A DNA stretch of 36,914 nucleotides, taken from assembly GCA_903903975.1 (NCBI GenBank), contig CAIVAS010000134.1, positions 1 through 36,914 on the forward strand. Direction: 5' to 3'. Both the position numbers and the translations under genes were made by a program. Under the pieces are notes generated by a model. The model worked only from the letters and a program-made list of their open reading frames with translations. It was not told the DNA's origin and searched no databases. This stretch comes from an uncultured Burkholderiales bacterium (GTDB lineage Bacteria; Pseudomonadota; Gammaproteobacteria; Burkholderiales; Burkholderiaceae_E). Positions 8,871 to 25,389 of the stretch are shown here, piece after piece (position 1 is the stretch's first letter; each line of letters begins with the position of its first letter).

Positions 8871-10172
8871 GTGTCCGAGTCCCTCCTTCTCCTGCTGATC
8901 CTGCTGCTGGTAGCCCTCCTGGTGGCAGCCTATGTGCTGCGCCCCCTGATCGCCAGACCCGCCTCGCGGGCCGAGCCCGATGCCGCCGCCGTCGCGCTGG
9001 CGGTCCTGCGCGAGCGCCGCAGCGAGCTTGAGGCCGCGCTCGTGCATCTGCCGGCCGATTCGCCCGAGCGGCGCGCAGCGCTGGCCGAATTCGCGATGCA
9101 GGCCGAATCCGAGCTGCCAGGCGAAGCCGTCGATCCGGATCCGGCGCAAGCAAAACCCTCGCGCCAGCCGATGCTGGCGGCACTGGTCGCGCTGTTGCTG
9201 GTCGTGCCGACCTTCGGGCTCTATCTGCTTGTCGGCCTGCCCGAAGCGGCATCGCCCGAGCTCAGAGCCATGCGCGAACCGGCGAGCATGGAAGAACTCA
9301 TCGACCGGCTGCGCACCCGCCTGCGCGACTCGCCCGCCGACCTCGAAGGCTGGCAGATGCTGGGGCGCGCCGAACTGGCGCAGGGAAAGGCGCAAGCGGC
9401 GCGCGAGGCCTTCGACAAGGCGCTTTTGCTCGCACCTGATAATGCCCAGATCAAGGTCGACCTTGCCGACGCGATCGCACAGAGCCAGGGTTCGGTGCTG
9501 GATGGTCGTCCGATCGCGCTGATCCGCGAAGCCCTCGTCAAAGAGCCGCGCAATCCCAAGGCGCTCGCGCTGGCGGGCGCCTATGAGGTTCGACAGGGCA
9601 ATACCGCCGGGGCACTGAGCCACTGGAAGACCCTGCTGACGGTGCTGCCGCCCGACTCCGATCAGGCGCGCCAGATCGTCGGTCTGATTGCCGACCTCGA
9701 AGCCGGCCGCGCGCCGCGTGTCGGCCCGGCCGCGGCAACGCCGTCCGCCCCGGCCAACGCAGCCGCCCAGGCACCGTCGGCCAGCACCGCATCCGCCGAT
9801 CCCGCGGCCAGCGCACTGAGCGGTCGCATCGAACTCGATGCAACACTTGCTGGCAAGCTGCGCCCGGATGACACGCTCTTCGTCGTGGCCCGCAGCCTTG
9901 ATGCGCAGGGCCAGGCGTCCGGGCCGCCCCTGGCGGTGTTGCGGGCACGCGGCGCCGATCTGCCACTGGCCTTCACGCTCGACGACCGGCTTGCGATGAG
10001 CCCCATGGCCAAACTGTCCACTGTGGCGCCGGGCGCTCAGGTAAGAGTGATCGCCCGGCTCTCGCGGTCCGGCGAGGCGGCCACCCGCAGCGGCGATCTG
10101 CTGGGCAACTCCGATCCGGTCAAACCCGGCACCAGCGGCATGAAGGTCGTGATCGGCAAGGAAGCGCCGTGA
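8871..10172 (+). CDS. ccmI: Cytochrome c maturation protein CcmI (CycH), TPR apocytochrome chaperone
   Basis: CcmI binds the C-terminus of apocytochrome c in the periplasm and hands it to the CcmF/CcmH ligation complex. The 433-residue product begins from GTG with a membrane helix (SLLLLLILLLVALLVAAYVL), a cytoplasmic segment with the typical LRERRSELEAAL heptad-like stretch, and a second membrane helix near 105-122. A TPR region follows (LEGWQMLGRAELAQGKAQAAREAFDK and later repeats), then a linker rich in Ala and Pro (about 285-315) and a C-terminal beta-rich domain (LFVVARS, GPPLAVLR, VRVIARLSRSG). This is the full-length two-part CcmI form. Its TGA overlaps the GTG of ccmA, so it is translationally coupled to the ccm operon. 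Its place at the front of the operon is unusual. Confidence 0.88.
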   Translation: MSESLLLLLILLLVALLVAAYVLRPLIARPASRAEPDAAAVALAVLRERRSELEAALVHLPADSPERRAALAEFAMQAESELPGEAVDPDPAQAKPSRQPMLAALVALLLVVPTFGLYLLVGLPEAASPELRAMREPASMEELIDRLRTRLRDSPADLEGWQMLGRAELAQGKAQAAREAFDKALLLAPDNAQIKVDLADAIAQSQGSVLDGRPIALIREALVKEPRNPKALALAGAYEVRQGNTAGALSHWKTLLTVLPPDSDQARQIVGLIADLEAGRAPRVGPAAATPSAPANAAAQAPSASTASADPAASALSGRIELDATLAGKLRPDDTLFVVARSLDAQGQASGPPLAVLRARGADLPLAFTLDDRLAMSPMAKLSTVAPGAQVRVIARLSRSGEAATRSGDLLGNSDPVKPGTSGMKVVIGKEAP

Positions 10173-10894
10173 GATCTGGCGCCACACCGATTGGCGTCGA
10201 GTCATTCGGTGGCCTCAAGGCAGCCTCGCTCGCGCTCGTCAGGGGTGAGCGCACGCTCTTCGTCGATCTGTCTTTCAGACTGGCGCCCGGCGAACTGCTG
10301 CGGCTCCTGGGCCCCAATGGCTCGGGCAAGAGCAGCCTGCTGCGAGCCCTGCTCGGCCTGACGCCGCTGGCCCGCGGGCAGCTGTTTGCCGGGCCCGCCG
10401 ATTCGCCGGTCCTGCCTCGTGAGCTGTGCGAACAGGCGCTCTATCAGGGCCATGCCCATGGCGCCAAAGGCGAGCTGACCGCCATCGAAAACCTTACGCT
10501 TGCGGCCACGCTCGATGGCAGTCTGACCGCCGATGACGCCGGGCCGATCCTTGAGGCTGCGCTCGACGAGGTCGGCCTCACACGTCAGCGCCATATCGAC
10601 ACCCGACGCCTGTCGCAGGGTCAGAAGCAGCGGCTCAATCTGGCACGCTTTGCGATCGCGCTGCGTGCCGCAGATCGGCCGCTGTGGCTGATGGATGAGC
10701 CGAGTGCCGCGCTCGATGCAAGCGGGCTGGCGGTGCTCGAAGCGCTGCTCGGCCGTCACCTTGCCCGCGGCGGCGCGGCAATCGTCGCCACCCACCTGCC
10801 GATCGCGCCGCACCAGGGCGTTGTGCGCGACCTGCACCTCGACGCCTTCGCGCCGCGCCGCGTGCGGGAGGGTCTGGCCGAGCTCGCGCAATGA
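10169..10894 (+). CDS. ccmA: Heme exporter ATP-binding protein CcmA
   Basis: ATPase of the CcmAB(CD) complex, which uses ATP to release holo-CcmE from CcmC after heme loading. 241 residues with the Walker A loop GPNGSGKSS at about 48-56, signature LSQGQKQRLNLARF, Walker B LWLMDEPSAALD and a switch histidine in IVATHLP. The GTG start at 10169 overlaps the ccmI stop by four bases; it leaves a leader of about 15 residues longer than many CcmA proteins, so a slightly later start is possible. It overlaps ccmB by four bases at its 3' end. Confidence 0.93.
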   Translation: MRSGATPIGVESFGGLKAASLALVRGERTLFVDLSFRLAPGELLRLLGPNGSGKSSLLRALLGLTPLARGQLFAGPADSPVLPRELCEQALYQGHAHGAKGELTAIENLTLAATLDGSLTADDAGPILEAALDEVGLTRQRHIDTRRLSQGQKQRLNLARFAIALRAADRPLWLMDEPSAALDASGLAVLEALLGRHLARGGAAIVATHLPIAPHQGVVRDLHLDAFAPRRVREGLAELAQ

Positions 10895-11565
10895 CCGAGT
10901 TTGGCGCCATCGCCTGGGCGCTGCGGCGAGATCTCACGCTCGCGATGCGACGCCGCGGCGACATCCTCAACGTGCTCGGCTTTTTCGTGCTGGCCTGCTC
11001 GATGTTTCCACTGGCCATCGGCCCGCAGCGCGAATGGCTGCAACGCATCGGGCCCGGGGTGATCTGGGTGGCCGCGCTGCTGTCGGTCATGCTCGCACTG
11101 CCGAGGCTCTTCGAGCACGACCATGCCGACGGCACCCTCGATGCCATGGTGGCCAGCGGCCGCCCCCTGTGGGCGCTTGTCGCGGGCAAGATGATCGCCG
11201 CCTGGCTGGTCACCGCCCTGCCGCTGCTCGCCCTGTCGCCCGCGCTCGCGCTGGCCTTCAACCTGCCGACCTCGACCCTGTCGGTGCTGGTGGGCTCGCT
11301 GCTGCTGGGCACGCCGGTGCTGATCGGCATCGGGGCGATCACCGGCGCGCTGGCACTCGGCCTGAAGTCGGGTCCGGTCCTGATGACCCTGCTGTGCCTG
11401 CCGCTCTATGTCCCGGTGCTGGTCTTCGGTGCCGGCGCGGTCGAAGCCCAGGCGGCCGGACTGTCGCCACTGGCCCATCTCGCGCTGCTGGGCGCTGGTA
11501 TGCTGGCGGTCCTGCTGCTGGCACCGTTCGTTGCCGCGCTGGCCCTGCGTATCTCGGTCGAATGA
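10891..11565 (+). CDS. ccmB: Heme exporter membrane protein CcmB
   Basis: 224 residues, six predicted membrane helices, the permease partner of CcmA. The N-terminus (AWALRRDLTLAMRRRGDILNVLGFF) matches the family's start, with an arginine-rich cytoplasmic segment before helix one. The conserved LPRLFEHDHADGTLD segment, typical of CcmB, lies after the second helix. The start codon overlaps the ccmA stop (ATGA). CcmB together with CcmA forms an ABC module required for release of heme-loaded CcmE. Confidence 0.93.
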   Translation: MTEFGAIAWALRRDLTLAMRRRGDILNVLGFFVLACSMFPLAIGPQREWLQRIGPGVIWVAALLSVMLALPRLFEHDHADGTLDAMVASGRPLWALVAGKMIAAWLVTALPLLALSPALALAFNLPTSTLSVLVGSLLLGTPVLIGIGAITGALALGLKSGPVLMTLLCLPLYVPVLVFGAGAVEAQAAGLSPLAHLALLGAGMLAVLLLAPFVAALALRISVE

Positions 11566-11575
11566 CCCTGCCCGG

Positions 11576-12301
11576 ATGAACCCCTTTCGATTCGCCGCCC
11601 CGCCTGTTTTCTATCCGCTCGCCGGACGTCTGCTGCCCTGGTTCACGGCGGCCGCGGTATTGCTGGCGGTGGCCGGTCTTTACGTCGGATTCGGCATCGC
11701 ACCGACCGACTTCCAGCAGGGTGAGGTCTATCGGATCATCTTCATCCATGTGCCGACCGCCTGGATGGCGATGTTCATCTATGTGGTGATGGCCGGCTAC
11801 GCGGTGCTGACCCTGGTCTGGCGCTCGAAGCTGTCGGCGATGATGTGCCGGGCACTGGCACCCACCGGCGCAATCATGGCGGTGATCGCCCTGCTCACCG
11901 GCGCGATCTGGGGCAAGCCCACCTGGGGCGCCTGGTGGGTCTGGGACGCCCGACTGACCTCGACCCTGATCCTGCTCTTTCTCTACCTCGGCTACATGGC
12001 GCTGGTGGCGGCCATCGACGACACCACCCGCGCCGACCGTGCCGGCGCGCTGCTGCTGCTGGTCGGTGTGGTCAATGTGCCGATCATCTATTTTTCGGTG
12101 CGCTGGTGGAACACCTTGCATCAGGGGGCAAGCGTCAGCCTGACCACCTCGCCCAAGATGGCCAGCACCATGCTGACCGGCATGCTGCTGATGAGCCTGG
12201 CCGCCTGGATGTACTCGATCGCCGCAGCGCTGCACCGGGTGCGCTCGATCATCCTTCAACGTGAGCGTCACACCCGCTGGGTGCGGCAGCTCTTTGCCTG
12301 A
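11576..12301 (+). CDS. ccmC: Heme handling protein CcmC
   Basis: CcmC presents heme to CcmE at the periplasmic face of the inner membrane. The 241-residue protein has six membrane helices and the heme-handling WWD signature WGAWWVWDARLTS (about residues 116-128). It also has the two flanking histidine segments that supply axial ligands, IFIHVPTAWM and WNTLHQGASV. The frame is open upstream into ccmB, but the ATG at 11576, ten bases after the ccmB stop, gives the expected short N-terminus (MNPFRFAAPPVFY). ccmD follows after 15 bases. Confidence 0.95.
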   Translation: MNPFRFAAPPVFYPLAGRLLPWFTAAAVLLAVAGLYVGFGIAPTDFQQGEVYRIIFIHVPTAWMAMFIYVVMAGYAVLTLVWRSKLSAMMCRALAPTGAIMAVIALLTGAIWGKPTWGAWWVWDARLTSTLILLFLYLGYMALVAAIDDTTRADRAGALLLLVGVVNVPIIYFSVRWWNTLHQGASVSLTTSPKMASTMLTGMLLMSLAAWMYSIAAALHRVRSIILQRERHTRWVRQLFA

Positions 12302-12316
12302 GCCGCACATCCCGAT

Positions 12317-12505
12317 ATGTCCGACTCGCATCTGAGCTATCTTGCGGTGGCCTACGGCTTTACCGCCCTGGCGATTGCGATCGAGTGCGTGGCCTTGCTG
12401 CGCACCCGGCGCCAGTCCATCGACCAGGTCCAACGCGAGCGCGATCTTGATCTTGACGATCACGAGTCGATCGCCGACCCACGCAACGAGGCAGCCAAAT
12501 CATGA
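12317..12505 (+). CDS. ccmD: Heme exporter accessory protein CcmD
   Basis: 62-residue single-pass membrane protein between ccmC and ccmE, matching CcmD in size, topology and position. It has a short periplasmic lead ([15 protein letters not shown]), one helix ([13 protein letters not shown]), then a basic, charged cytoplasmic tail ([18 protein letters not shown]). CcmD stabilises CcmE with CcmABC. It ends in an ATGA overlap with ccmE. CcmD is poorly conserved, so much of the call rests on context. Confidence 0.87.
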
Positions 12506-12984
12506 GTGCCATCCAGGCAAAACTCCCGTCCGGCCCGACGATCCGCCGCAAGCGCCTGGTGTGGATTGCCATCGGGCTGGCGGTTCTGGCGGTTGCCATC
12601 GGGCTGGTGCTCTATGCCCTGAAGTCGAACATCGTCTTTTTCTTCACACCCACCCAGATCGCTGCCAATGAGGCGCCGCAGGGTCGCGCGTTCCGGGTCG
12701 GCGGCATGGTCGAAACCGGCAGTGTGGTGCGCGATGGCCTCGAGGTGCGCTTTCGGGTGACCGATACCGTCAAGACCATCCCGGTGATCTATCGCGGCAC
12801 CCTGCCCGACCTGTTTCGCGAAGGCAAAGGTGTCGTGGCGCAGGGTAAGGTCGGTCCGGACGGCGTGTTCAAGGCCGATGAGGTGCTGGCCAAGCACGAC
12901 GAAAACTACATGCCCCCGGAAGCCGCCGAGGCGCTCAAGCGCGCCGGCAAGCCGATCGGCGCCGGCACGGTCTCGCAGCCATGA
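12502..12984 (+). CDS. ccmE: Heme chaperone CcmE
   Basis: Periplasmic heme chaperone that binds heme covalently through a histidine and delivers it to CcmF. It is 160 residues: a basic cytoplasmic N-terminus with the RRKRL motif, one membrane helix (about 19-40), then the OB-fold domain ([37 protein letters not shown]). The active-site motif [13 protein letters not shown] carries the heme-binding His132 and the nearby Tyr136. This is the His-type CcmE, not the Cys variant. The gene overlaps both neighbours by four bases. Confidence 0.96.
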
Positions 12985-14987
12985 TCGCCGAGCTCGGTCA
13001 CTTCGCGCTCTGGCTGGCGATGGCGCTCGCCCTGGTGCAGGCGGCAGGCGGCCTCGCGGGCGCTGCGCGGGCTGATGCCGCCTGGATGCGCGCCGGCGGC
13101 AATGCGGCCAATGCCCAGTGCCTGATGGTGGTGCTCGCCTTCGCGGCGCTCGCCACCTCGTTCATCGACAACGATTTCTCGCTGGTCAATGTCGCCAGCA
13201 ACTCCAACTCGCAGCTCCCAGTCCCTTACCGCTTTGCGGCCACCTGGGGCTCGCACGAAGGCTCGCTGCTGCTGTGGGCACTGATGCTGGCCGGCTGGAC
13301 GGCCGCAGTCAACGCCTTCGGCACGGCCTTGCCGACCGTGTTTCGGGCGCGGGTGGTCGGTGTGCTGGGTCTGGTAGCCACCGGCTTTCTGGCCTTCATG
13401 CTCTTTACCTCCAATCCCTTCATGCGCCAGCTGCCCGGGCCGGCCGATGGTCGCGACCTCAATCCGCTGCTGCAGGACCCGGGCATGGTCATCCATCCGC
13501 CCATGCTCTACATGGGGTATGTCGGTTTCTCTGTGGCCTTCGCCTTTGCGGTGGCCGCGATGCTGGGCGGTCGGGTCGATGCCGCCTGGACCCGCTGGGC
13601 GCGCCCCTGGACCACCGCCGCCTGGTGTTTCCTCACGATCGGCATCGCGCTGGGCAGCGCCTGGGCCTACTACGAACTAGGCTGGGGCGGCTGGTGGTTC
13701 TGGGACCCGGTTGAAAACGCCTCGTTCATGCCCTGGCTGGTCGGCACGGCGCTGATCCACTCGCTCATCGTGACCGAGCGGCGCGGCGGTTTTCGCGCCT
13801 GGACCATGCTGCTGGCAATTGCCGCCTTCAGCCTGTCGCTGCTTGGCACCTTTCTCGTTCGCTCGGGCGTGCTCACCTCGGTCCATGCCTTTGCCAGCGA
13901 CCCGACCCGCGGGATCTTCATTCTGGCCTTTCTGGTGGCGGTGGTCGGCGGCTCGCTGATCCTCTTTGCGCTGCGCGGCCCCGGCATCGCCGGCAACCAG
14001 ACACCAGTGAGCTTCGCGCCAAGTTCGCGCGAAGGCTATCTGCTGGCCAACAACCTGCTGATGGTGACCGCAGCCGGGTCGGTCCTGCTCGGCACGCTCT
14101 ATCCGCTGGTGCTCGATACCCTGGGCCTGGGCAAGATCTCGGTCGGACCACCCTATTTCGAAGCGGTGTTCTTTCCGCTGATGGCGCCTGCCGCCTTCCT
14201 GATGGGCATCGGGCCGATTTCGCGCTGGCGCGAATCGCCGCTGCCACAGCTGGCAGCACGCCTGAAATGGGCCTTCGGCATCGCGGTGGCCGCGGCCGTG
14301 CTGATCACCGTCACCAGCGGTCGGCTCGGGTCCCAGACCTCGGTGCTGGGTGGCCTCGGATTTGCGATCGGCCTCTTTCTCGGCCTGTGGCTGATCGCGG
14401 CAAGCGGCGTCGCGATCTATGAGCGGGCCGGGCAGGTCAAGGCCGCGAGCTGGCCGGCGCGCCTGCGGTCGATGCCCGGCGGTTTCTGGGGCATGATCCT
14501 CGCCCACACCGGAGTCGGCGTCTTTTGCATCGGCGTGGCCTGCGTCAAGGCCCTCGACCTCGAGGTCGACGCCGCGCTCGGTGCCAATCAGTCGGTCGAG
14601 GTCGGCGACTACACGCTCACGCTGCGCGACATCCGCGAGATCACCGGCCCCAACTATCGGGGCGTGCAGGGCGTCGTGCAGGTCTCGCGCGACGGCAAGC
14701 AGGTGCTCGAACTCAATCCCGAAAAGCGCTTCTATCCGACCACCCAATCGGTCATGACCGAAGCCGCGATTGATTCCGGCCTGACCCGTGACCTCTATGT
14801 TGCACTCGGCGAACAACTGCCCGACGGTCGCTGGACGCTCAAGACCTGGGTCAAACCCTTCATCGACTGGATCTGGGGGGGCTGCTTCATGATGGCGCTT
14901 GGCGGATTCGTTGCGATCAGCGATCGCCGCTATCGTGCCGCCCGGCGCTCGGCGGTCGATGACCGCAAGGTCACGGCCTCGGCCTGA
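12981..14987 (+). CDS. ccmF: Cytochrome c heme lyase subunit CcmF
   Basis: 668-residue membrane protein with more than ten helices, the core of the heme ligation complex. It takes heme from CcmE and attaches it to apocytochrome CXXCH motifs. The WWD motif [20 protein letters not shown] is at about residues 234-253. Other family segments are [18 protein letters not shown] near 75, [12 protein letters not shown] near 172 and [21 protein letters not shown] near 290. A periplasmic domain lies near the C-terminus, followed by a last helix and a basic tail. Its start overlaps the ccmE stop (ATGA). Length and motifs match complete family members. Confidence 0.97.
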
Positions 14988-14998
14988 ACCACACCGGC

Positions 14999-15535
14999 AT
15001 GCGCTCGCTTCGTTTCATTCTGCCGGCGCTCGCTTTTGCGGTCATCGCCGCCTTCCTGCTGCTCGGGCTCAAGCCCGGACGCGATCCGCGCGAAATTCCC
15101 TCGCCGCTGATCGACAAGCCGGCGCCAGCGTTCAATCTGCCCCTGCTTGCGCAGACCGATCAAACCTGGTCGCCCGACAAGATGCGCGGCCAGGTCTGGC
15201 TGCTCAATGTCTGGGCCTCGTGGTGTGCACCCTGCCTGGTCGAGCATCCCGAACTGCTCAAGCTCGCGCGGACCAAGGCCTTGCCGGTGGTCGGATTCAA
15301 CTACAAGGACGAGCCGGGCGCGGCCACGGCCTGGCTCGACAAACACGGCAATCCCTATGCCACGGTCGTCGCTGACCGCAATGGTCGGATCGCTTTCGAT
15401 TACGGCGTCTATGGTGTGCCCGAGACCTTTCTGATCGATCGCAATGGCACGATCCGCTACAAGCATGTCGGCCCGCTCACTCCCGAGGTGATTGCCGACA
15501 AGCTCCTGCCGCTGGCACAGGCACTCGCCCGATGA
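14999..15535 (+). CDS. ccmG: Thiol:disulfide interchange protein CcmG/DsbE
   Basis: Membrane-anchored periplasmic thioredoxin-like protein that reduces apocytochrome and CcmH disulfides. The 178-residue product has an N-terminal helix (about 5-24) and then the thioredoxin fold with the active site ASWCAPCLVEHP (Cys76, Cys79). The conserved GVPETFLID cis-proline segment and the family's VVGFNYKDEPGAA loop with an acidic residue are also present. It starts 11 bases after ccmF and overlaps ccmH by four. Confidence 0.95.
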   Translation: MRSLRFILPALAFAVIAAFLLLGLKPGRDPREIPSPLIDKPAPAFNLPLLAQTDQTWSPDKMRGQVWLLNVWASWCAPCLVEHPELLKLARTKALPVVGFNYKDEPGAATAWLDKHGNPYATVVADRNGRIAFDYGVYGVPETFLIDRNGTIRYKHVGPLTPEVIADKLLPLAQALAR

Positions 15536-16128
15536 CGACCCGCCTCGCCATCATTGCCGAGCAATCACGAGCTGCCGGCAAGTGGCTCGCCCGGCAGTGC
15601 ACGGCAGCGCTGATCGCCGGATTGCTGACCTGCAGCCTTGCGAGCGCGGCCCCAGCGACTGCCCAAGCGACTGCCCAAGCGGGTGCAATACCGGGTTCTT
15701 CAGTGGCCGATGCCCCAAGCAGCACCCTCGCCGACCCGTCGCCCGAGCAGGCCCGCGAGCTGCTGCAAAGCGACCGCTTCCGGCGACTGGCGTCAGAGTT
15801 GCGCTGCCTGGTTTGCCAGAATCAGACGCTGGCCGACTCAAACGCCGACCTGGCCACCGATCTGCGCAACGAAGTCCTGCGCCAGATGGCAGCAGGCCGG
15901 GACGACACGCAGATCAAGGACAACCTTGTCGCACGCTACGGCGAATTCGTGCTCTATCGGCCGACCTATTCGGGCCGCAATCTGGCGCTGTGGGCAGGCC
16001 CTGCGGTTCTGCTCGCGCTGGGCGCGTTCATGGTGTGGCGAATCAGCCGCACGCGGCGGACATCGGCGACCGTCGCCGTCGACGAGGCGCAACTGAAACG
16101 CGTCGACGAACGACTCAACGATCGCTGA
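15532..16128 (+). CDS. ccmH: Cytochrome c maturation protein CcmH
   Basis: Thiol-disulfide component of the heme ligation complex. The 198-residue product has a long N-terminus containing a signal-like helix (about 22-45), then the mature domain with the redox motif LRCLVCQNQTLADSNADLA (Cys92, Cys95) and the segment ARYGEFVLYRPTYSGRN. A C-terminal helix (LWAGPAVLLALGAFMVW) and a basic tail close the protein. This is the short CcmH form, consistent with a separate ccmI in the same operon. The N-terminal region is longer than typical, Ala/Gln-rich, and contains a small DNA duplication at 15655-15678. It is the last ccm gene. Confidence 0.93.
   Translation: MTTRLAIIAEQSRAAGKWLARQCTAALIAGLLTCSLASAAPATAQATAQAGAIPGSSVADAPSSTLADPSPEQARELLQSDRFRRLASELRCLVCQNQTLADSNADLATDLRNEVLRQMAAGRDDTQIKDNLVARYGEFVLYRPTYSGRNLALWAGPAVLLALGAFMVWRISRTRRTSATVAVDEAQLKRVDERLNDR
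15655..15678 (+). repeat. Two tandem copies of a 12-base unit within ccmH
   Basis: GCGACTGCCCAA occurs twice head to tail, followed by a degenerate third start. It is in frame and encodes ATAQATAQA in the linker after the signal-like helix of CcmH. It looks like a recent slippage duplication in a tolerant region. Confidence 0.7.
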
Positions 16129-16813: not shown

Positions 16814-18016
16814 ATGTCCTCCAAACCGCCACTTCATCTCGATTCACGCCTGCTGCACGCCGATGACGCACTGCACGAAGGCAGCTCACTCACGCCGCCA
16901 ATCCCATGGTCAGCCACCTTTCTGGCCGACGATGCGAGCGCCTTCGCGCAGATGGCGTCAACGCCGATGCATCAGCGCTACTACACCCGCTACGGTAATC
17001 CCTTGCATCAGCGGGTGGCTCGCATCGTGGCCGACCTCGAAGGTGCTGCCACCGGACTGGTCACCGCAAGCGGCATGGGAGCCATCTCGACAACGCTGCT
17101 CGGACTGCTTCGCGCTGGTGACCATGTTGTGGCGCAACGCAATCACTACATGGGCACCACCCGCCTGCTGTCCGATCTGCTCGAACGCTTTGCGGTCACT
17201 TGCGAGTTCGTCGATCAGACCGACAACCAGGCCTTCGCGCGGGCGCTGCAACGCCCCACCGCGGTGGTCATGCTGGAGAGTCCGACGAATCCCGACTGCA
17301 GCCTGACCGACATCGCGACAGCCGCCCGTCTGGCGCATGCCGCAGGCGCGCTGGTGGTGGTCGACAACACCTTTGCCACACCCCTGAACCAGCAGCCGCT
17401 TTCCATCGGTGCCGATCTGGTGGTGCACAGCGCGACCAAATACCTCGGTGGCCATCATGATCTGACTGCGGGCGTGGTCGTCGGCAGCCAAGCACTCATC
17501 GAACGCCTGTGGTCAACGCAGATCGTGATGGGTGCCACCCTGTCGCCGATGGATGCCTGGCTGCTGCTGCGAGGACTGCGCACCCTGTCGGTGAGAATGG
17601 CGCGCATCAATGCCTCGGCCCTGACGGTCGCGCGCGCACTGGCGGCCCACCCTGCGGTGGCATCCGTGTCTTATCCGGGTCTGTCCGATCATCCGCAACA
17701 TGCGCTCGCGCTCGAGCAGATGACCGGCTTCGGTGGCGTGATGGGAGTGAGGCTGACGTTTGACTATGCAGGCACCGCGGCATTCGTGAGCAAGCTCGCG
17801 CTCGCCCAGCAGGCGGTCAGCCTGGGCGGCGTCGATACGCTGGTGGTCCATGCTGCCGCCATGTGGGCCGGCAGTCTCGATGACGCGCAGATGCGCCAGT
17901 CGGGCATCGAGCCCAACCTCGTCAGGTTGTCGATCGGGCTCGAACACCCTGATGACCTGATTGCCGACCTGCAGCACGCCCTTGATGCCGGCATGAGCTC
18001 ATTGCATTCCGGTTAA
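16814..18016 (+). CDS. PLP-dependent Cys/Met metabolism (transsulfuration-family) enzyme
   Basis: 400-residue fold-type I PLP enzyme of the cystathionine gamma-synthase / beta-lyase / methionine gamma-lyase family. Visible family features are the YYTRYGNPLHQRV segment, the cofactor phosphate-binding ASGMGAIS, LESPTNPDCSLTDI, the Asp of VVVDNTFATPLNQQPL that contacts the pyridine nitrogen, and the Schiff-base lysine in HSATKYLGGHHD (Lys209). The C-terminal LVRLSIGLEHPDDLIADL is also typical. Which reaction it catalyses cannot be told from sequence alone. An in-neighbourhood partner for methionine or cysteine synthesis is missing. The start at 16814 is preferred over the ATG at 16807, which is out of frame. 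A protease gene follows within 45 bases and may be co-transcribed. Confidence 0.88.
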   Translation: MSSKPPLHLDSRLLHADDALHEGSSLTPPIPWSATFLADDASAFAQMASTPMHQRYYTRYGNPLHQRVARIVADLEGAATGLVTASGMGAISTTLLGLLRAGDHVVAQRNHYMGTTRLLSDLLERFAVTCEFVDQTDNQAFARALQRPTAVVMLESPTNPDCSLTDIATAARLAHAAGALVVVDNTFATPLNQQPLSIGADLVVHSATKYLGGHHDLTAGVVVGSQALIERLWSTQIVMGATLSPMDAWLLLRGLRTLSVRMARINASALTVARALAAHPAVASVSYPGLSDHPQHALALEQMTGFGGVMGVRLTFDYAGTAAFVSKLALAQQAVSLGGVDTLVVHAAAMWAGSLDDAQMRQSGIEPNLVRLSIGLEHPDDLIADLQHALDAGMSSLHSG

Positions 18017-18045
18017 ACTGCACTCCGACATGAATTGCCGCAAAC

Positions 18046-18050
18046 GGAGG
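18046..18050 (+). promoter_or_regulatory. Ribosome binding site of the protease gene
   Basis: GGAGG lies 8 bases before a TTG at 18059 and 14 bases before the ATG at 18065. The spacing favours the TTG as initiation codon; the protein differs by only two residues. Confidence 0.55.
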
Positions 18051-18058
18051 TCCCTGTT

Positions 18059-19687
18059 TTGCTGATGCGTCCGGGCGCCGCACTGCGCGCCGTTGTGCTG
18101 CCCGGTCTGATCACCTTGCTGGCGATCACCCTGGTGGGCTGCAGCAACAGCAGCAACAGCAGTGCGCCATCGAGCACCATCTCGGCCGGCAAGAATTGCG
18201 ACCTGAGCTACAGCCTCACGCAAAGCCCGGTGCTCACCGGGCCTGACCCGCTGCTCGGCGATCAGTGGCACCTCACCAATACCGGACAAAACGGCGGAAC
18301 ACCCGGCGAGGACTTGCGCGCAGCGGGTGCCTGGCCGGTGACCCGCGGCAGCGGGGTGAGGGTGGCCGTGATCGACGACGCCGTCGAAGTCACGCATCCC
18401 GATCTCTACCCCAACCTGGTCGAGGGCGCGAGTCGCAGCTATCGCAACGGCAATCGCGGCAGCGTGTGGCCGGTGCCCTGCATCAAGGCCGACGACGATC
18501 ACGGCACTGCGGTCGCCGGCCTGGTGCTCGCACGAGACGGCAATGCGATCGGTGTCGTAGGCGTGGCGTCGCGCGCGTCGCTGGTGGCCTACGATGCCTT
18601 GTCGACCTCCTACGATATCGACATCGCCGATGCACTGACGCGCGACAGTCAACTCAACTCGATCTACCAGAACAGCTGGGGGTCCCCCGACGACGGGCAT
18701 CTGCATACAGCCGACGCGGCTTTCACCGCCGCCATCACCAGCGGACTCGTCACCGGTCGCCAGGGCAAGGGCTCGGTCTATGTCTTTGCCGGCGGCAACG
18801 GCGGCTGCTACCTGATCGATTCGGCGACACAGAAATGTCAGGTCGACAATTCGAACTTCGATGGCTATGTCAATCAGCGCGGCATCGTGACGGTCTGCGC
18901 GGTCGACAACAAAGGCGTGAGCCCCTGGTATGGCGAGCCCGGCGCGACGCTGACGGTGTGTGCGCCGTCGTCTGGCTCGAACCCGGTGGGCGTGACCACC
19001 ACCGCGCTCAATGGCAGCTACGAATCGACCTTCAGCGGCACATCGGCCAGCACGCCGATGGTCTCGGGCGTGATCGCCCTGATGCTGTCGGTCAACCCAG
19101 CCCTCACCTGGCGTGATGTGCGGATCATCCTCGCCCAGTCGGCACGACGCAACGACCCGACCGACGCCGGCTGGCTGCCGGCTGCAGACGGGCTGAAGTT
19201 CAACCACAAATACGGCTTCGGTGTTGCCAATGCCCAGGCCGCGGTCGCCATGGCCGGCACCTGGGCCTCAGTCGGCGGTAGCGCGAGCTTAAAGACTTGC
19301 GATTCTCCGCTGCGCGCCCCCAATCTGCCGCTACCCGATACCAGGTCAGACGGCACGTCGACGCCGGTCTCGGACAGCCTGTCGATGGCAGGCTGCAACA
19401 TCACCAGCATCGAGTTCGTCGAAATCTTTTTTACTGCCTCGCATACCTACAGTGGCGATCTGAAAGTGACTGTCACCAGCCCGGCAGCCGCGGTCAGTCA
19501 GCTCGCCAATGCGCGCATCTGCAAGGGCGCCGGCGATGCCTGCGGGGCCTACAGCAATTGGCGATTCGGCTCGATGCGGCATCTGGGCGAAGCGGCCAAT
19601 GGCAACTGGACCATGACCGTGACCGACATGGGGCCGGGCGACACCGGTCGATTCGATGCATGGAGCCTGAAAATCTATGGCCACTGA
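18059..19687 (+). CDS. Kexin-like (S8B) serine protease, predicted outer-membrane lipoprotein with P-domain
   Basis: Secreted subtilase of the proprotein-convertase branch. Numbering from the Met at 18065, residues 1-25 are a lipoprotein signal with lipobox LVGC (Cys26). The next residue is Ser, not Asp, so the Lol rule predicts outer-membrane sorting. The catalytic domain begins almost at once (DPLLGDQWHLTNTGQNGG at about 61-78). Triad: Asp104 in VAVIDD, His146 in DDHGTAVAG, Ser327 in FSGTSASTPM; oxyanion Asn245 in AGGNGG. The kexin signature NSWGSPDDG is at 203-211. The C-terminal ~130 residues are a P/Homo-B domain with TYSGDLKVTVTSP, then NGNWTMTVTD and a closing WSLKIYG. Several cysteines fit periplasmic disulfides. 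Only about 35 residues separate the lipid Cys from the catalytic domain, so there is no room for the usual propeptide; the next gene may supply it. Substrate unknown. Confidence 0.88.
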   Translation: MLMRPGAALRAVVLPGLITLLAITLVGCSNSSNSSAPSSTISAGKNCDLSYSLTQSPVLTGPDPLLGDQWHLTNTGQNGGTPGEDLRAAGAWPVTRGSGVRVAVIDDAVEVTHPDLYPNLVEGASRSYRNGNRGSVWPVPCIKADDDHGTAVAGLVLARDGNAIGVVGVASRASLVAYDALSTSYDIDIADALTRDSQLNSIYQNSWGSPDDGHLHTADAAFTAAITSGLVTGRQGKGSVYVFAGGNGGCYLIDSATQKCQVDNSNFDGYVNQRGIVTVCAVDNKGVSPWYGEPGATLTVCAPSSGSNPVGVTTTALNGSYESTFSGTSASTPMVSGVIALMLSVNPALTWRDVRIILAQSARRNDPTDAGWLPAADGLKFNHKYGFGVANAQAAVAMAGTWASVGGSASLKTCDSPLRAPNLPLPDTRSDGTSTPVSDSLSMAGCNITSIEFVEIFFTASHTYSGDLKVTVTSPAAAVSQLANARICKGAGDACGAYSNWRFGSMRHLGEAANGNWTMTVTDMGPGDTGRFDAWSLKIYGH

Positions 19688-19733
19688 TCGAATCACGGTG
19701 TGTGACGCTTCCCGAACGCGCACACCGGGTGTG

Positions 19734-20312
19734 ATGTCGCGGATTACAGCCTTTTTTGCCGCCCTCGCAGTGGCGGGTGTCGTGGCCCTCCTCGGCGCGG
19801 CGTCGACAGCGCTCGCCCAGCCTGCACCAGGCCCGATCGACACCTCGCGCATCGAAACCGCCAGCAAGCGTTCATCGATCGCCGTGAAGTCAGTGCAAGC
19901 AACTCATGTCTGGCACGACGGCGCCTCCGCTCGCATGCTGACCCTCGACGAGACACTCGAGGCGCACTTCCCGGGCGGACTTCTGCCTGAAGGCAAGGTA
20001 CTGCGCCCCGCGGGCAGCACCGACCGCGGGCAGGCCGCACAGATCTCCCCGGTGCTGCGCGACGAATCGGGCCGACCGCGCAGCCTGCCCGGTGGCGTGG
20101 TGGTGGTGCTTAAAGCCCCAATGGACGAGACCAGTGCGCGAGCGCTGATCGGCCAGGCAGGCGCCACACCGCTGCAAGCGCTGACTGACAGGCTCTGGCT
20201 GGTCCAGGGACCGATCGGCCTGGGGTCGCTCAGACTCGCCAACCAGTTGCAGGCGGCAGGGGTCTTCGAGTCGGCACAACCCAATTGGTGGATGCCCCGA
20301 ACCCGCAAGTAG
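19734..20312 (+). CDS. Secreted protein resembling a stand-alone subtilase propeptide
   Basis: 192-residue exported protein: signal peptide MSRITAFF...ASTALA with cleavage before QPAPG (about 28/29), a low-complexity middle, and a C-terminal domain from about 119. The order of predicted elements there is strand (GGVVVVLK), helix (DETSARALIG), strand (DRLWLVQG), helix (GSLRLANQLQAAG), strand (FESAQPNWW). That matches the ferredoxin-like propeptide fold of subtilases (I9/fervidolysin prodomain), and endings like AQPNWW are typical just before a mature subtilase domain. The frame is open back to an ATG at 19677 that overlaps the protease stop; the ATG at 19734 is preferred because it gives a standard signal peptide. 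What I see is the pattern; the propeptide-like role (folding helper or inhibitor of the upstream protease) is inferred. Confidence 0.7.
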   Translation: MSRITAFFAALAVAGVVALLGAASTALAQPAPGPIDTSRIETASKRSSIAVKSVQATHVWHDGASARMLTLDETLEAHFPGGLLPEGKVLRPAGSTDRGQAAQISPVLRDESGRPRSLPGGVVVVLKAPMDETSARALIGQAGATPLQALTDRLWLVQGPIGLGSLRLANQLQAAGVFESAQPNWWMPRTRK

Positions 20313-20418
20313 GGTTTGGTCAACCCGGCAAGCTGTGCCGCAACGCGACATTCGTCGCGCGGGTCGCGTAGCGCGGCGGACTACAATCGACGGCTCGCCG
20401 ACTGCAGGACCATCGATC

Positions 20419-23085
20419 ATGCGCACCGACCAGCCGGTCACGCTTCAACGTCTCGACTACACGCCCCCGGCCCACACGGTCGATACGATCGCGCTGGCCT
20501 TCGACCTCGACCCGCAGCGCACCCGCGTCACCGCCACGATGCAGTTGCGGCGCCTGCCTCATGCCGCTGCCGATGCGCCGCTCTGGCTGGATGGCGACGG
20601 CCTGACATTGCTGAGCGCCTCGATCGACGGTCAGCCGGTCGACGCACAGCGGCTCCATGCCGATGCCCACGGACTGCGCATCGACGCGCCGCCGGCAGCC
20701 TTCACGCTGGTCACCGAAGTGATGTTCTGCCCGGCCGACAACACCGCGCTCAACGGACTGTATGTGTCCAATGGCAGCTTCTACACCCAGTGCGAGGCGC
20801 ATGGCTTTCGGCGCATCACCTATTTTCCCGACCGCCCCGATGTCATGGCGCGCTACACCGTCGACATCATTGCGGACGCCTCCCGATGGCCGGTGCTGCT
20901 GTCCAACGGCAATCTGATCGAGACGCTCACCCTGCCCGATGGCCGCCAGCGCGTGCGATGGGTCGATCCGTTTCCGAAGCCGAGCTATCTGTTCGCCCTG
21001 GTCGGCGCCAATCTGCAGGCCCGTGAAGAGCGCATCCAGACCGCCTCGGGGCGCGACGCCCTGCTGCAGGTCTGGGTCGAACCCGGCAACCTCGATCGCA
21101 CCGAACACGCCATGGCCTCGCTGATCCGCTCGATCCGATGGGATGAGGAGCGCTACGGCCTGGAGCTCGATCTCGACCGCTTCATGATCGTGGCGGTCGG
21201 CGACTTCAACATGGGCGCGATGGAGAACAAGGGTCTGAACATCTTCAACACGAAATACGTGTTCGCCCATCCGCATATCGCCACCGATGCCGATTTCGTC
21301 CATGTCGAATCAGTCGTGGCTCACGAGTATTTTCACAACTGGACCGGCAACCGGGTGACCTGTCGCGACTGGTTTCAGCTCACGCTCAAGGAGGGCCTGA
21401 CGGTCTTTCGCGACCAGGAGTTCTCGGCCGATGTCATGGCTGCGGCCTGCCCCGATGAGGCCAGCGCGCAAAGCGCACGGGCGGTCAAGCGAATCGCCGA
21501 TGTCCGCGTCCTGCGTGCCATGCAGTTCGCGGAAGACGCCGGCCCGATGGCCCATCCGATCCGCCCCGACAGCTATCAGGAAATCAACAACTTCTACACC
21601 GTCACCGTCTACGAGAAAGGCGCCGAGGTCATCCGGATGCTGCAGACGCTGGTCGGCCGTGAAGGCTTCAGACGTGCGATGGCGCTCTATTTCGAGCGCC
21701 ATGACGGGCAGGCAGTGACCTGCGACGACTTCGTCGCCTGCGTGGCCGATGCCAACGGCCGAGACCTGGATCAGTTCAAGCGCTGGTATTCGCAGGCCGG
21801 CACGCCACGGGTCCATGCCCAGGGACGCTACGACGCACAAAACCGGCGCTATACCCTGACGCTTCGCCAGTGGTGTCCGCCCTCACCCGGCCAGCCCGAC
21901 AAGCTGCCCTTTCACATCCCTGTGGCGGTCGGCCTGATGGGCGGGGACGGCGCCGAACTCGCGCAAGTCACCCTCGAACTCACCGACGCGTCGCAGACCT
22001 TCGTGTTCGACGATATCGTGCCGCGCGCCGATGCCGACGGTCAGGTCCGGGTGGTCGCCTCGCTGCTGCGCGATTTCAGCGCGCCGGTCATCCTCGACTA
22101 CCAGACCGACGATGCCACGCTCGCCTTCCAGATTGCCCACGACACCGATGCCTTCAATCGCTGGGAGGCGGCTCAGCGGCTGGCCATCTCGGCAATCCTG
22201 CGCGTACTCGAAGGCATGCCGGTGACTGAGGCAAGCGCCGGGCTCAATCGCGCGCTCGCCCGTGCCATCGCGGACCAGAGTCTGAACCCTGCCCTGCGTG
22301 CGCAATTGCTGGCGCTGCCCTCCGAGGGCTTCATCGCCGAGCAGCTTGAGGTTGTCGAACCGGTGGCCTTGCGCAGGGCGCGCAACGCGGTGCGCGATGC
22401 GATGGCGCGGGCACTCGCCACCGAGCTGCGAAAGCTGCTCGACGCGCCGCACCTGCGGGCCCCCTATTCACCCGACCCGGTCTCGGCAGGCCGGCGCAGC
22501 CTGCACAATGCCGCGCTCGCCTTGCTGGTCGAAGCCGGCATCGAAGGCGCCGACCGACTGGCACAGGATCAGATCGACCATGCCGACAACATGACCGACC
22601 GGCTCGGTGCGATCTCGGCGCTGGTGCAAAGTGCCTCGCCGCTACGCGAGCCGGGGCTGGCCGCCTTTGCAAGCCTCTTTGATGCCGAGCCGCTGGCCAT
22701 GGATAAATGGTTCACGCTGCAGGCCACCATGCACCGGCAACCGGGCGATGCACCGGTACTCGAACGGGTGCGCTCGCTGATGACCCACCCCCTGTTTTCG
22801 CTGCGCAATCCCAATCGGATCCGCTCGCTGATCACCAGTTTTTGCGGCGGCAATCTGGCCGAATTCCATGCGGCAGACGGTTCGGGCTATCAGTTCTGGG
22901 CCGAGCAGGTGGTGGCGCTCGATGCGGTCAATCCGCAGATCGCAGCCCGCCTTGCGCGGGCCCTCGACCGCTGGCGCAAGTTCGATGCGACACGCCAGCC
23001 ATTGATGCGGGCCGCACTCGAACAGGTCGCAGCCAACGCCCAATCACCCGACGTTCTTGAAGTCGTCGGCAAGGCACTCGCCTGA
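20419..23085 (+). CDS. pepN: Aminopeptidase N (M1 family)
   Basis: Cytoplasmic zinc aminopeptidase that trims N-terminal residues in the last steps of peptide breakdown. The 888-residue length is right for the bacterial PepN type. Key residues are visible: exopeptidase motif MGAMENKG (GAMEN at 266-270), and zinc site HEYFH at 302-306 followed after 18 residues by Glu325 in LKEGLT. The transition-state tyrosine is in [16 protein letters not shown]. The C-terminal half is the helical domain typical of the family (DUF3458). The frame is open to 20335, but the ATG at 20419 ([14 protein letters not shown]) matches the usual N-terminus. TACAAT at 20382-20387 could be a -10 box. fbp starts 22 bases downstream. 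Confidence 0.96.
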
Positions 23086-23107
23086 TGGCGCCCACAAGGA
23101 AACCAAG

Positions 23108-24118
23108 ATGAAAAAACAGATCAGCCTCACGCAATACCTGGTCGAGAAACAGCGCGAAAAGAACCTGATCCCGGCCGAATTGCGGCTCTTGCTCGAGGTG
23201 GTGGCCCGCGCCTGCAAGCGGATCAGCTATGGCGTGGGCAAGGGTGACCTGGCCGGCATCCTGGGCGAGGCCGGCTCCGAGAACATTCAGGGCGAAGTGC
23301 AGAAAAAGCTCGATGTGATCGCCAACGAGACCCTGCTTGAGGCCAACGAATGGGGCGGCCATCTGGCCGCGATGGCCTCCGAAGAAATGGACCATCCCTA
23401 CACCATCCCTAACCGCTATCCGAAGGGCGAATTTCTGCTGCTCTTCGATCCGCTCGATGGCTCGTCCAACATCGACGTGAATGTCTCGATCGGCACGATC
23501 TTCTCGGTGCTGCGCCTGCCCGAGGGGGTGCATGTGCCTGAAGAAAAATCTTTTTTGCAGACCGGCTCGCATCAGCTTGCCGCCGGCTATGCGGTTTATG
23601 GCCCCTCGACGCTCCTGGTGCTGACCGTGGGCGACGGCGTGGCGTGCTTTACCCTCGATCGCGAAACCGGCTCCTGGTGGCTGACCACCGACGCCATGAT
23701 GATTCCGCATGACACCAAGGAATATGCGATCAATGCGTCGAACGCGCGGCATTGGCATGAGCCGGTCAAGCAGTATGTCGCCGATCTGAACGCCGGCCGC
23801 GACGGCCCGCTCGGCAAGGACTACAACATGCGATGGGTCGCGTCGATGGTCGCCGACATCCATCGGATCATGACCCGCGGTGGCATCTTCATGTATCCGG
23901 CCGACGGCCGCGAGCCGGGCAAACCCGGCAAGCTTCGCCTGCTCTACGAGGCCAATCCGATGGGCTTTCTGGTGGAGCAGGCTGGCGGCATGGCCACCAA
24001 CGGGCGGGAGCGGATTCTCGACATCCAGCCGGCCGCCCTGCACGAACGGGTGGCGGTGTTCATGGGCTCACGCAATGAGGTCGAGCGCGTGACCGGCTAT
24101 CACAGCCGGAAGCCCTAA
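23108..24118 (+). CDS. fbp: Fructose-1,6-bisphosphatase, class I
   Basis: Hydrolyses fructose 1,6-bisphosphate to fructose 6-phosphate in gluconeogenesis. 336 residues with the N-terminal [15 protein letters not shown], the metal-binding segment [23 protein letters not shown], the substrate loop NYNMRW-like [15 protein letters not shown], and GGIFMYPAD followed by [20 protein letters not shown] good AAGGAA ribosome binding site precedes the ATG at 23108. The location 22 bases after pepN suggests one transcript. Together with glk elsewhere in the window it covers opposite ends of hexose metabolism. The stop codon lies in the first of three GCCCTAA-type repeats. Confidence 0.96.
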
Positions 24119-24141: not shown

Positions 24142-25389
24142 TTAGGCCATCCCCCGCCGCCGCACCAGCGCGACTGCCAGTAAGGCGCCACCGGCCACCA
24201 GCGGCAGCGTGCCCGACACCGGCAAGGTCTCTGCCGCGACCCGCTGCAGCATCAGCGCCTGCGATGAAGTGATTCCCAGATCCCTGGCGGCCTGCTCGTT
24301 GGCACCGAGCATCATCGGGTTCAGGCCGGTCAGGGAACCGAAGAGTGTCAGTGCACTGAGATAGGAGCCAAAGAGGCTTGCGTGGGTGCGATCGAGCCAC
24401 CACAGATCGATGGTTCCGTCGGGCGGTGCGCGATAGACACCATTGGCATCGTAAAAGCCGCTGCCCAGCACCAGCCCCTGATCGACCGCCCGCTGAAAGG
24501 CATCACCGACCGGTACCACGCCAGTAAAACCGCTGTTGCTGGCCGCCTTGTTGTAGAACGAGTTATGCAGGTCGGTGGTCATGCCAGAGAGCTTGTTGTA
24601 GTAGAGCGTCGCCTGGCCGCCTGCGGCACTGGTATCGACGATCGGCGCACCATTGGCGGTGGTCTTGTCGGGCGTGGTGATTTTGTGCGCCTCGACCATG
24701 TCGGGCCTGGCCCAGGACTGCTCGAGATAGACCTGGGTTTTCGCGCTGGCATAGGGGTTGGCCGCAATCACACGGGAGGTATTGCAACTCGTCTTCGTCA
24801 GTCCGGTGGCCATGCAGTTCGACTCACTGCCGAACAGCTGGGTCTCGGTATAAGTTTGCGCGGCGCCGTTATGAATGAAACGCTCGAACTTGTCGGCATA
24901 GGCATTGAAAGTGGCCAGATTGGCGTTCTTTCCCATACCCGGGGGCAAGGCCGCATCGCTTTGCTCCTGCAGGACCACCTTGTCCCAGGTCTGGGTTGCC
25001 ACGTTTTCACGCAGTTTCCAGTCGCTGTTGGCGGTATTGAGGAATTGCCCGCGCAACGATGCGGCATTGCGGGTCGACATCGCCACGTCGTAATTCAGAC
25101 CGACCTCATCGGTCATCTTCTTGAAGATGCCGGCTACACCGCCCCAGGGATGCGGCTCGAAGTAACCTTGCCCGGCGGTGCCGGTCGGGTAGCTGTTGGT
25201 ACCCGTGGGGTTGGTGGCATTGAAGCCCGCCGTCAGGTCGCGGACATTGGCGCTGTTGTAGCTCAGCACCGGATCGACCCGGCCAAAGGTGTAGCTGTTG
25301 CCGACAAAGAGCACCGAGGTCGGTTCGGCGTTGGCGGACAGACAGGCCAGCGCCAGACATGGCACGGCCAACAGGGCAAAACGGTTCAT
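24142..25389 (-). CDS. Exported SGNH/GDSL-type hydrolase with PEP-CTERM-like C-terminal tail
   Basis: 415 residues: signal peptide (MNRFALL...LSANA, cleavage near residue 21), then an SGNH hydrolase-like domain. Block I is VLFVGNSYTFG, with the nucleophile Ser32. A WDKVVLQEQSDAALP segment is typical of this hydrolase group. The late motif WLDRTHASLFG supplies the likely Asp333 and His336. The last 27 residues have sorting-signal architecture: LPVSGTLPL, a hydrophobic helix, then RRR and three more residues. This is close to PEP-CTERM tails (exosortase substrates) of betaproteobacteria, but with SG in place of the usual EP. A GGAGA ribosome binding site supports the start at 25389. It is last in a leftward gene series but has its own candidate promoter. 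Substrate unknown; an acyl or acetyl ester is plausible. Confidence 0.78.
   Translation of the reverse strand: MNRFALLAVPCLALACLSANAEPTSVLFVGNSYTFGRVDPVLSYNSANVRDLTAGFNATNPTGTNSYPTGTAGQGYFEPHPWGGVAGIFKKMTDEVGLNYDVAMSTRNAASLRGQFLNTANSDWKLRENVATQTWDKVVLQEQSDAALPPGMGKNANLATFNAYADKFERFIHNGAAQTYTETQLFGSESNCMATGLTKTSCNTSRVIAANPYASAKTQVYLEQSWARPDMVEAHKITTPDKTTANGAPIVDTSAAGGQATLYYNKLSGMTTDLHNSFYNKAASNSGFTGVVPVGDAFQRAVDQGLVLGSGFYDANGVYRAPPDGTIDLWWLDRTHASLFGSYLSALTLFGSLTGLNPMMLGANEQAARDLGITSSQALMLQRVAAETLPVSGTLPLVAGGALLAVALVRRRGMA

Follow-up and report, generated by a model that had tools for sequence, protein, structure and literature searches.

Kexin and furin are eukaryotic enzymes with an N-terminal propeptide that carries an internal cleavage site. 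A bacterial protease of the same S8B type, encoded in the stretch of DNA analyzed here (the window, which is the whole of contig C134, 36,914 nucleotides, from a genome of 3.95 Mb in 270 contigs), has no such propeptide, and the locus raises the question of whether the gene directly downstream supplies it. The protease gene lies at 18065..19687 on the forward strand and encodes 540 residues from an ATG at 18065; an in-frame TTG at 18059 would give two more. Following a hydrophobic stretch is a lipobox, LVGC (residues 23–26, 18131..18142), recognized by eye and by pattern, and by this criterion the protein is a bacterial lipoprotein with predicted lipidation. A linker of 34 residues (18143..18244) occupies the normal place of a propeptide, and the motif DPLLGDQWHL begins at residue 61, 35 residues past Cys26. 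The S8 catalytic domain (18347..19222) carries Asp104, His146, Asn245 and Ser327, together with Asp209 and Asp266, which we take to be the S1 acids, and Asp105, which we take to serve S2, these roles being carried over from furin and kexin. It is followed by a proprotein convertase P domain (19415..19675).

Pfam searches recognized Peptidase_S8 (residues 95–386, E = 2.3e-39) and P_proprotein (residues 451–537, E = 3.5e-17) in the protease and nothing besides these two at an E-value of 5. The best PDB matches were Kexin (5.5e-61, 210 bits) and Furin (5e-47), with the Aeromonas protease ASP (3hjr) at 1.6e-27 (100 bits). The original prediction of an S8B-type enzyme in which the catalytic domain follows lipobox Cys26 after ~35 residues is therefore upheld by sequence, Pfam and PDB alike. 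As in kexin and furin (MEROPS S8B), an S8 domain precedes a P domain and the triad, the oxyanion Asn and the S1 and S2 acids are present, whereas a same-chain N-terminal propeptide is absent. Conservation of these residues extends through the window's GTDB family: Asp-His-Asn-Ser is intact in 80 of 80 near-full-length proteases, both S1 acids are present in 79 and Asp105 in 69.

The family proteases resemble that of the window at their N-termini. Of 91 protease stretches from the family, some of them truncated at the start, 69 contain a strict lipobox pattern, and in those 69 the distance from the lipobox Cys to QWHL is 23–133 residues (median 49). Three profiles, built from fused propeptides, family partners and wider partners, detected a propeptide at E ≤ 1 in 0 of the 91 N-terminal stretches; in the same comparison, the fused-propeptide profile matched 55 of 57 family partners at this threshold, with a best value of 4.7e-9. 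Two loci, L018 and L020, were considered as protease–partner fusions and rejected, the long frame at the partner being merely open across the protease, which is read in another frame.

The downstream partner gene can be read in two forms, both on the forward strand. A gap of 46 bases behind the protease, as described earlier, holds for the shorter form (P0002, 19734..20312, 192 residues), which starts at the ATG at 19734, but not for a longer form (19677..20312, 211 residues), which begins in frame at an ATG (19677) that overlaps the stop codon of the protease. Because an ATG at the same offset as 19677 is the only ATG in the partner ORF of six relatives (L036–L040 and L044; GTG or TTG starts are possible), the two genes probably overlap and are translationally coupled. 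A scan of 17900–20500 returned 0 promoters and 0 terminators. In the shorter form, a predicted signal peptide (19734..19817) ends in ALA before QPAP and is presumably of the Sec type, judged by eye against the consensus. An N-terminal extension (19818..20081) with W-x-DG...R-x-L and SPVLRD motifs, conserved in the partner alignments A2 and A3, leads into a propeptide-like domain of the PF22148 type (20082..20309, residues 117–192 of P0002), assigned with hhalign. The C-terminus of the partner reads AQPNWWMPRTRK, and its tail (20280..20309) is P183-NWWMPRTR-K192, with Lys last. The protein had been thought to end in AQPNWW; it actually continues past PNWW with MPRTRK, and its last residue is nearly invariant among relatives.

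Taken alone, the window partner falls in no database family: searches of Pfam (E 5), NCBIfam and PDB gave no match, and the PF22148 model itself did not match it. This would suit an unrelated secreted protein that shares the transcription unit and resembles a propeptide by chance, a reading to which we give very little credence in view of the alignments. When the C-terminal domain was compared by hhalign with 14 fused propeptides of the PF22148 type, as had been suggested for the N-terminal regions of fused subtilases, the match ran end to end over 73 columns (95%, score 43.3), against scores of at most 18.9 and at most 8.9% in 100 column shuffles and at most 2.3% in other controls (the reversed alignment, the N-terminal part of the partner and 18 protease windows). 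The last ~76 residues, of which ~75 had been called propeptide-like, are thus homologous to these propeptides. PF22148 at E ≤ 1 matched 8 of 20 members of A3 (best 2e-5) and 3 of 29 members of A1 (best 0.0023), and besides the family partners mentioned above, the fused-propeptide profile matched partners of other families, where the pairing is conserved (best 1e-8 in a small search set). Comparison of the wider partner alignment (A3) with the pro-regions of six fused subtilases, some of them S8B-like (L177, L178, L180, L197, L198 and L201), gave 97% and 8.4e-11 in a run without shuffle control. Together, these comparisons indicate that the window partner's family is related to the PF22148 Fervidolysin_NPro-like domain. 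In fused bacterial subtilases this domain is part of the protease chain, whereas the window partner is a separate gene product with a fixed basic last residue.

In a joint alignment, the end of the partner falls immediately ahead of the first residues of the mature chain in the fused enzymes. The joint profile aligned in register with the prosegments of subtilisin E and BPN' in PDB, weakly (E = 0.048 and 0.063), and an unrelated protein scored higher at 0.014. The fused-propeptide alignment was drawn from 14 of 24 loci with a fused PF22148 match, with L106, L147, L154 and L157 trimmed by hand; L148 was omitted deliberately, a wrong ORF was chosen for L151 and L162, the trimming rule failed for L161, and no ORF was picked for L149, L150, L156, L158, L164 and L165. 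A further PF22148 match, L107 (G066), was set aside: the gene is lipoprotein-like, and none of the ORFs at its locus encodes a protease.

Co-occurrence of the two genes in related genomes, another check put forward with the original prediction, was surveyed in 74 genomes of the window's GTDB family (partner match at E 1e-3, protease match at E 1e-15). The protease was matched in 66 and the partner in 60; both genes were found in 59 genomes, the protease only in seven (G020, G024, G029, G061, G068, G070 and G074), the partner only in one (G083) and neither in seven. A Fisher test that ignores kinship gave 1.4e-5, and the counts are not independent because the genomes are related and many assemblies incomplete. 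Linkage is tight: for 67 of 68 family partner copies in the loci retrieved, a protease match on the same strand ends at most 336 bases upstream, the one exception being L135, with no protease on its stretch. Since the pair recurs across the family, its arrangement in the window is not due to chance. Protease and partner trees share the same nearest row in 29 of 57 cases and their distances correlate at 0.81 (at most 0.16 in 1000 shuffles), a correlation that shared species history can explain. Named relatives (31 loci) are Burkholderiales, Betaproteobacteria or unclassified assemblies, including Lautropia dentalis and Zeimonas arvi. One locus titled Bordetella parapertussis (L034) is a metagenome assembly with the same contig as G001, a member of the window's genus, and looks mislabeled.

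Viewed from the protease side, a partner adjoins 60 of the 80 near-full-length family proteases and is absent beside 20. Two of these lie near a contig end (L087) or before a masked stretch (L091), ten are extra copies in tandem arrays, L141 and L142 are separate second copies, four belong to one genus (L098 and L138–L140), and L101 and L144 are distant. No ORF ending in the tail signature, as a diverged partner might, was found at the 13 of 13 loci inspected beside unpartnered proteases.

The tandem arrays are found at L077 and in the Lautropia-like genus g2 (L094, L096, L097, L130, L131, L132 and L134/L143). Each has at least two and up to about six kexin-type proteases, for which no more than one or two partners were recognized, and the near-full-length protease copies examined keep their catalytic residues.

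The position of the last residue also argues against a coincidental likeness to propeptides. Of 66 untruncated family copies of the partner, 65 have Lys as the final residue, at a spacing of exactly 10 residues from the Pro of PN-W. In the remaining copy, L117, a Lys occupies that position and is followed by seven more residues; L136 and L137, truncated by contig ends, were left out of the count. For comparison, 2.2% of the residues in 57 family partner frames are Lys and 14.3% are Arg. Outside the family, the last residue is basic in all 11 distinct copies and has the same spacing (Arg in ten, Lys in one). A 53-residue partner remnant at L206 (G300), whose last residue is not basic, was not among the 11. 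Being related, the copies do not represent independent events. At L171 and L173, both partnered and outside the family, the protease has lost the S1 acids and the partner still ends in Arg. A search for covariation between the S1 acids and the last residue yielded nothing usable: within the family there is almost no variation in either, and L171 and L173 argue against close coupling. We found no description of a fixed basic last residue in the literature excerpts examined.

From the homology of the partner to fused propeptides, the co-occurrence and linkage of the genes, the fixed basic C-terminus and the intact catalytic and S1 residues, we consider it probable that the two genes together encode a single proenzyme in two pieces, with the partner as the detached propeptide of the S8B protease. 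The principle of a split propeptide is already published. According to the available part of one report, activation of nascent ASP of Aeromonas sobria requires ORF2, encoded just downstream; ORF2 ends in Gln, Pro and Lys, of which the Lys seems to contact the catalytic center, and similar operons occur in Vibrio, Shewanella, Chromobacterium and Pseudoalteromonas (PMC5638518). In the accessible sections of a 2022 survey of subtilases, ASP is listed in S8B without an N-terminal propeptide and is called the exception to the same-chain propeptide rule and, elsewhere, one of two propeptide-deficient subtilases (PMC9549277). The window pair shares with ASP/ORF2 (PDB 3wqb and 2mk4) an S8B-type protease without propeptide, a small secreted protein encoded downstream and a C-terminal Lys on the latter. 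It differs in that ASP is described, in the text available, as an extracellular enzyme, whereas the window protease has a lipobox, and in that the partner is recognizable at the family level as a propeptide of the PF22148 type, whereas its relation to ORF2 is limited to a remote and unsure profile match. The lipid-anchored family with a recognizable propeptide is new: we found no paper on a lipid-anchored or Burkholderiales version in a search that covered mostly journals open without subscription.

By analogy with ASP and ORF2, the partner would most likely act as an external chaperone and temporary inhibitor, with its last residue held in the S1 pocket like that of a cleaved propeptide. Severed from the protease at the pro/mature junction and secreted as a protein in its own right, the propeptide would pair in the periplasm with the lipid-anchored protease. 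Like a normal propeptide, it would template folding of the catalytic domain, and it would cover the active site. The substrate cleft would be occupied by its C-terminal tail, whose last residue, the P1 Lys, would fill the acidic S1 pocket formed by Asp209 and Asp266. Placed like the end of an already cleaved propeptide, the tail would therefore need no autocatalytic cleavage, and degradation or displacement of the partner would free the mature protease.

Propeptide domains inhibit as well, and stand-alone inhibitors of the I9 type, such as the yeast proteinase B inhibitor, likened here by description only, also supply a propeptide fold in trans; these act on proteases that have their own propeptide. 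The partner could accordingly be an inhibitor or immunity protein only, derived from a propeptide and merely guarding the cell envelope from a protease that folds alone. A basic C-terminus suits an S1-directed inhibitor, and ORF2 itself inhibits ASP with an IC50 of 84.3 nM (PMC5638518, from the part available). The outnumbering of partners by proteases in the tandem arrays fits such a role, as do four genomes of one genus (G029, G061, G068 and G074) in which the catalytic residues are intact and no partner was found even at E 0.1. The proteases of this genus (L098, L138, L139 and L140) are likewise without propeptide, with a lipobox seen in three and L098 cut at the start; its fifth genome, G014, has both genes. 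It had been held that relatives active without such a neighbor would speak against a split propeptide. The four genomes go part of the way: their proteases are partnerless, have intact catalytic residues and may be active. Against a purely inhibitory role stands the absence of an own propeptide from the family proteases, combined with the statement, in the excerpts at hand, that folding is supported by the N-terminal propeptide in subtilases other than ASP (PMC9549277). We therefore judge this alternative improbable and retain the detached propeptide as the preferred reading. Counted against the latter are the four partnerless genomes, the distant proteases of G020 and G070, which likewise have no partner at E 0.1, the excess of proteases in tandem arrays, the lack of any Pfam or PDB match for the window partner by itself, L171/L173, L206 and a C-terminal Gln in Vibrio, described below.

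Beyond the family, the protease was matched at E 1e-30 in 13 of 274 genomes of the class, its own included. A partner lies downstream in nine fetched class loci (L170–L173, L175, L176, L181, L183 and L185), whereas the most distant protease matches (L177, L178 and L180) have a fused pro-region in its place. Two other arrangements were each seen once outside the family. At L169 the partner lies upstream of the protease, in the order of the fused form, and in G144 the genes are unlinked: the 15 kb stretch that holds the single partner found in this genome by A3 contains no protease, and two proteases occur on a different contig, with no partner in the 6 kb fetched. A3 had matches in 15 of the 274 genomes of the class, and in six of these the match was to a fused subtilase; in a scan of 398 genomes of the phylum at E 1e-6, it matched its own genome and no others.

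Whether this split and that of ASP/ORF2 have a common origin was approached with profiles and trees. Partner profiles searched against PDB with HMMER did not reach ORF2, and when propeptide alignments were compared with ORF2-type sequence by hhalign, 11 of the 12 runs gave 0.1–13.9%. The twelfth, between A3 and a two-row ORF2-type alignment, gave 42% and a score of 30.3 over 95 columns in the same order, including the N-terminal motif, against at most 19.9 in 60 shuffles, and is a lead rather than proof. A Vibrio campbellii locus encodes an ASP-type enzyme without propeptide and a 148-residue neighbor that ends in Gln, not Lys, and has ORF2 as its best PDB matches (0.039 and 0.054); relatives of this neighbor were not found in 369 class genomes, in a search without positive control. 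In a tree, the Vibrio enzyme neighbors the split clade, with 84/68 support and a long branch. Fused relatives fall outside the split clade with an SH-aLRT of 92, and only 70/32 in a smaller tree, a position compatible with one cut without proving it.

An independent, convergent split, the mechanism of which may differ in detail, is a possibility we put somewhat below even. It concerns origin and can hold alongside the detached-propeptide explanation. The greater likeness of the window protease to kexin than to ASP (210 versus 100 bits), the profiles that miss ORF2, the 11 low hhalign values and the weak, long-branched placing of the ASP-type enzyme favor it, whereas the A3 match to ORF2-type sequence and that same placing next to the split clade point the other way. 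Under a common origin, which we offer with similar reserve, one ancient cut at the cleavage site would have given two branches, ASP/ORF2 and the lipid-anchored family, and the detached piece would be a mobile, shared foldase. With a stop codon at the point of autocatalytic cleavage, the propeptide would therefore be born already cleaved. If so, the Lys or Arg carboxylate would be a product-like plug of S1, and the piece would be free to sit downstream, upstream or unlinked and to serve several tandem proteases. The lipid-anchored family would add a large second set beside ASP, with sequence-level homology to ordinary propeptides, and suggests a route from fused to split. Natural pairs in other gene orders offer test cases for how folding works in trans, whether a partner is shared among clients and what the last residue does.

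Other loci showed further variation. At L187 (G172), the gene after an S8 protease encodes 224 residues, and its product looks propeptide-like by eye and is unrecognized by the partner profile; this is possibly a second, diverged split pair. Outside the family, the partners at L172, L173, L175, L185 and L207 have lipobox-like signals by eye, and both halves may be lipid-anchored there.

In the window, the pair is preceded by cytochrome c maturation genes (9096–16125; CycH, CcmF, a redoxin-domain protein and CcmH) and followed by genes for an M1 aminopeptidase and a fructose-1,6-bisphosphatase (20419–24118). A gene on the reverse strand (24142–25389) encodes a protein with a hydrolase-like VLFVGNSYTFG near its start and no Pfam match at 1e-5, which ends in a hydrophobic stretch and an Arg-rich tail, PEP-CTERM-like by eye.
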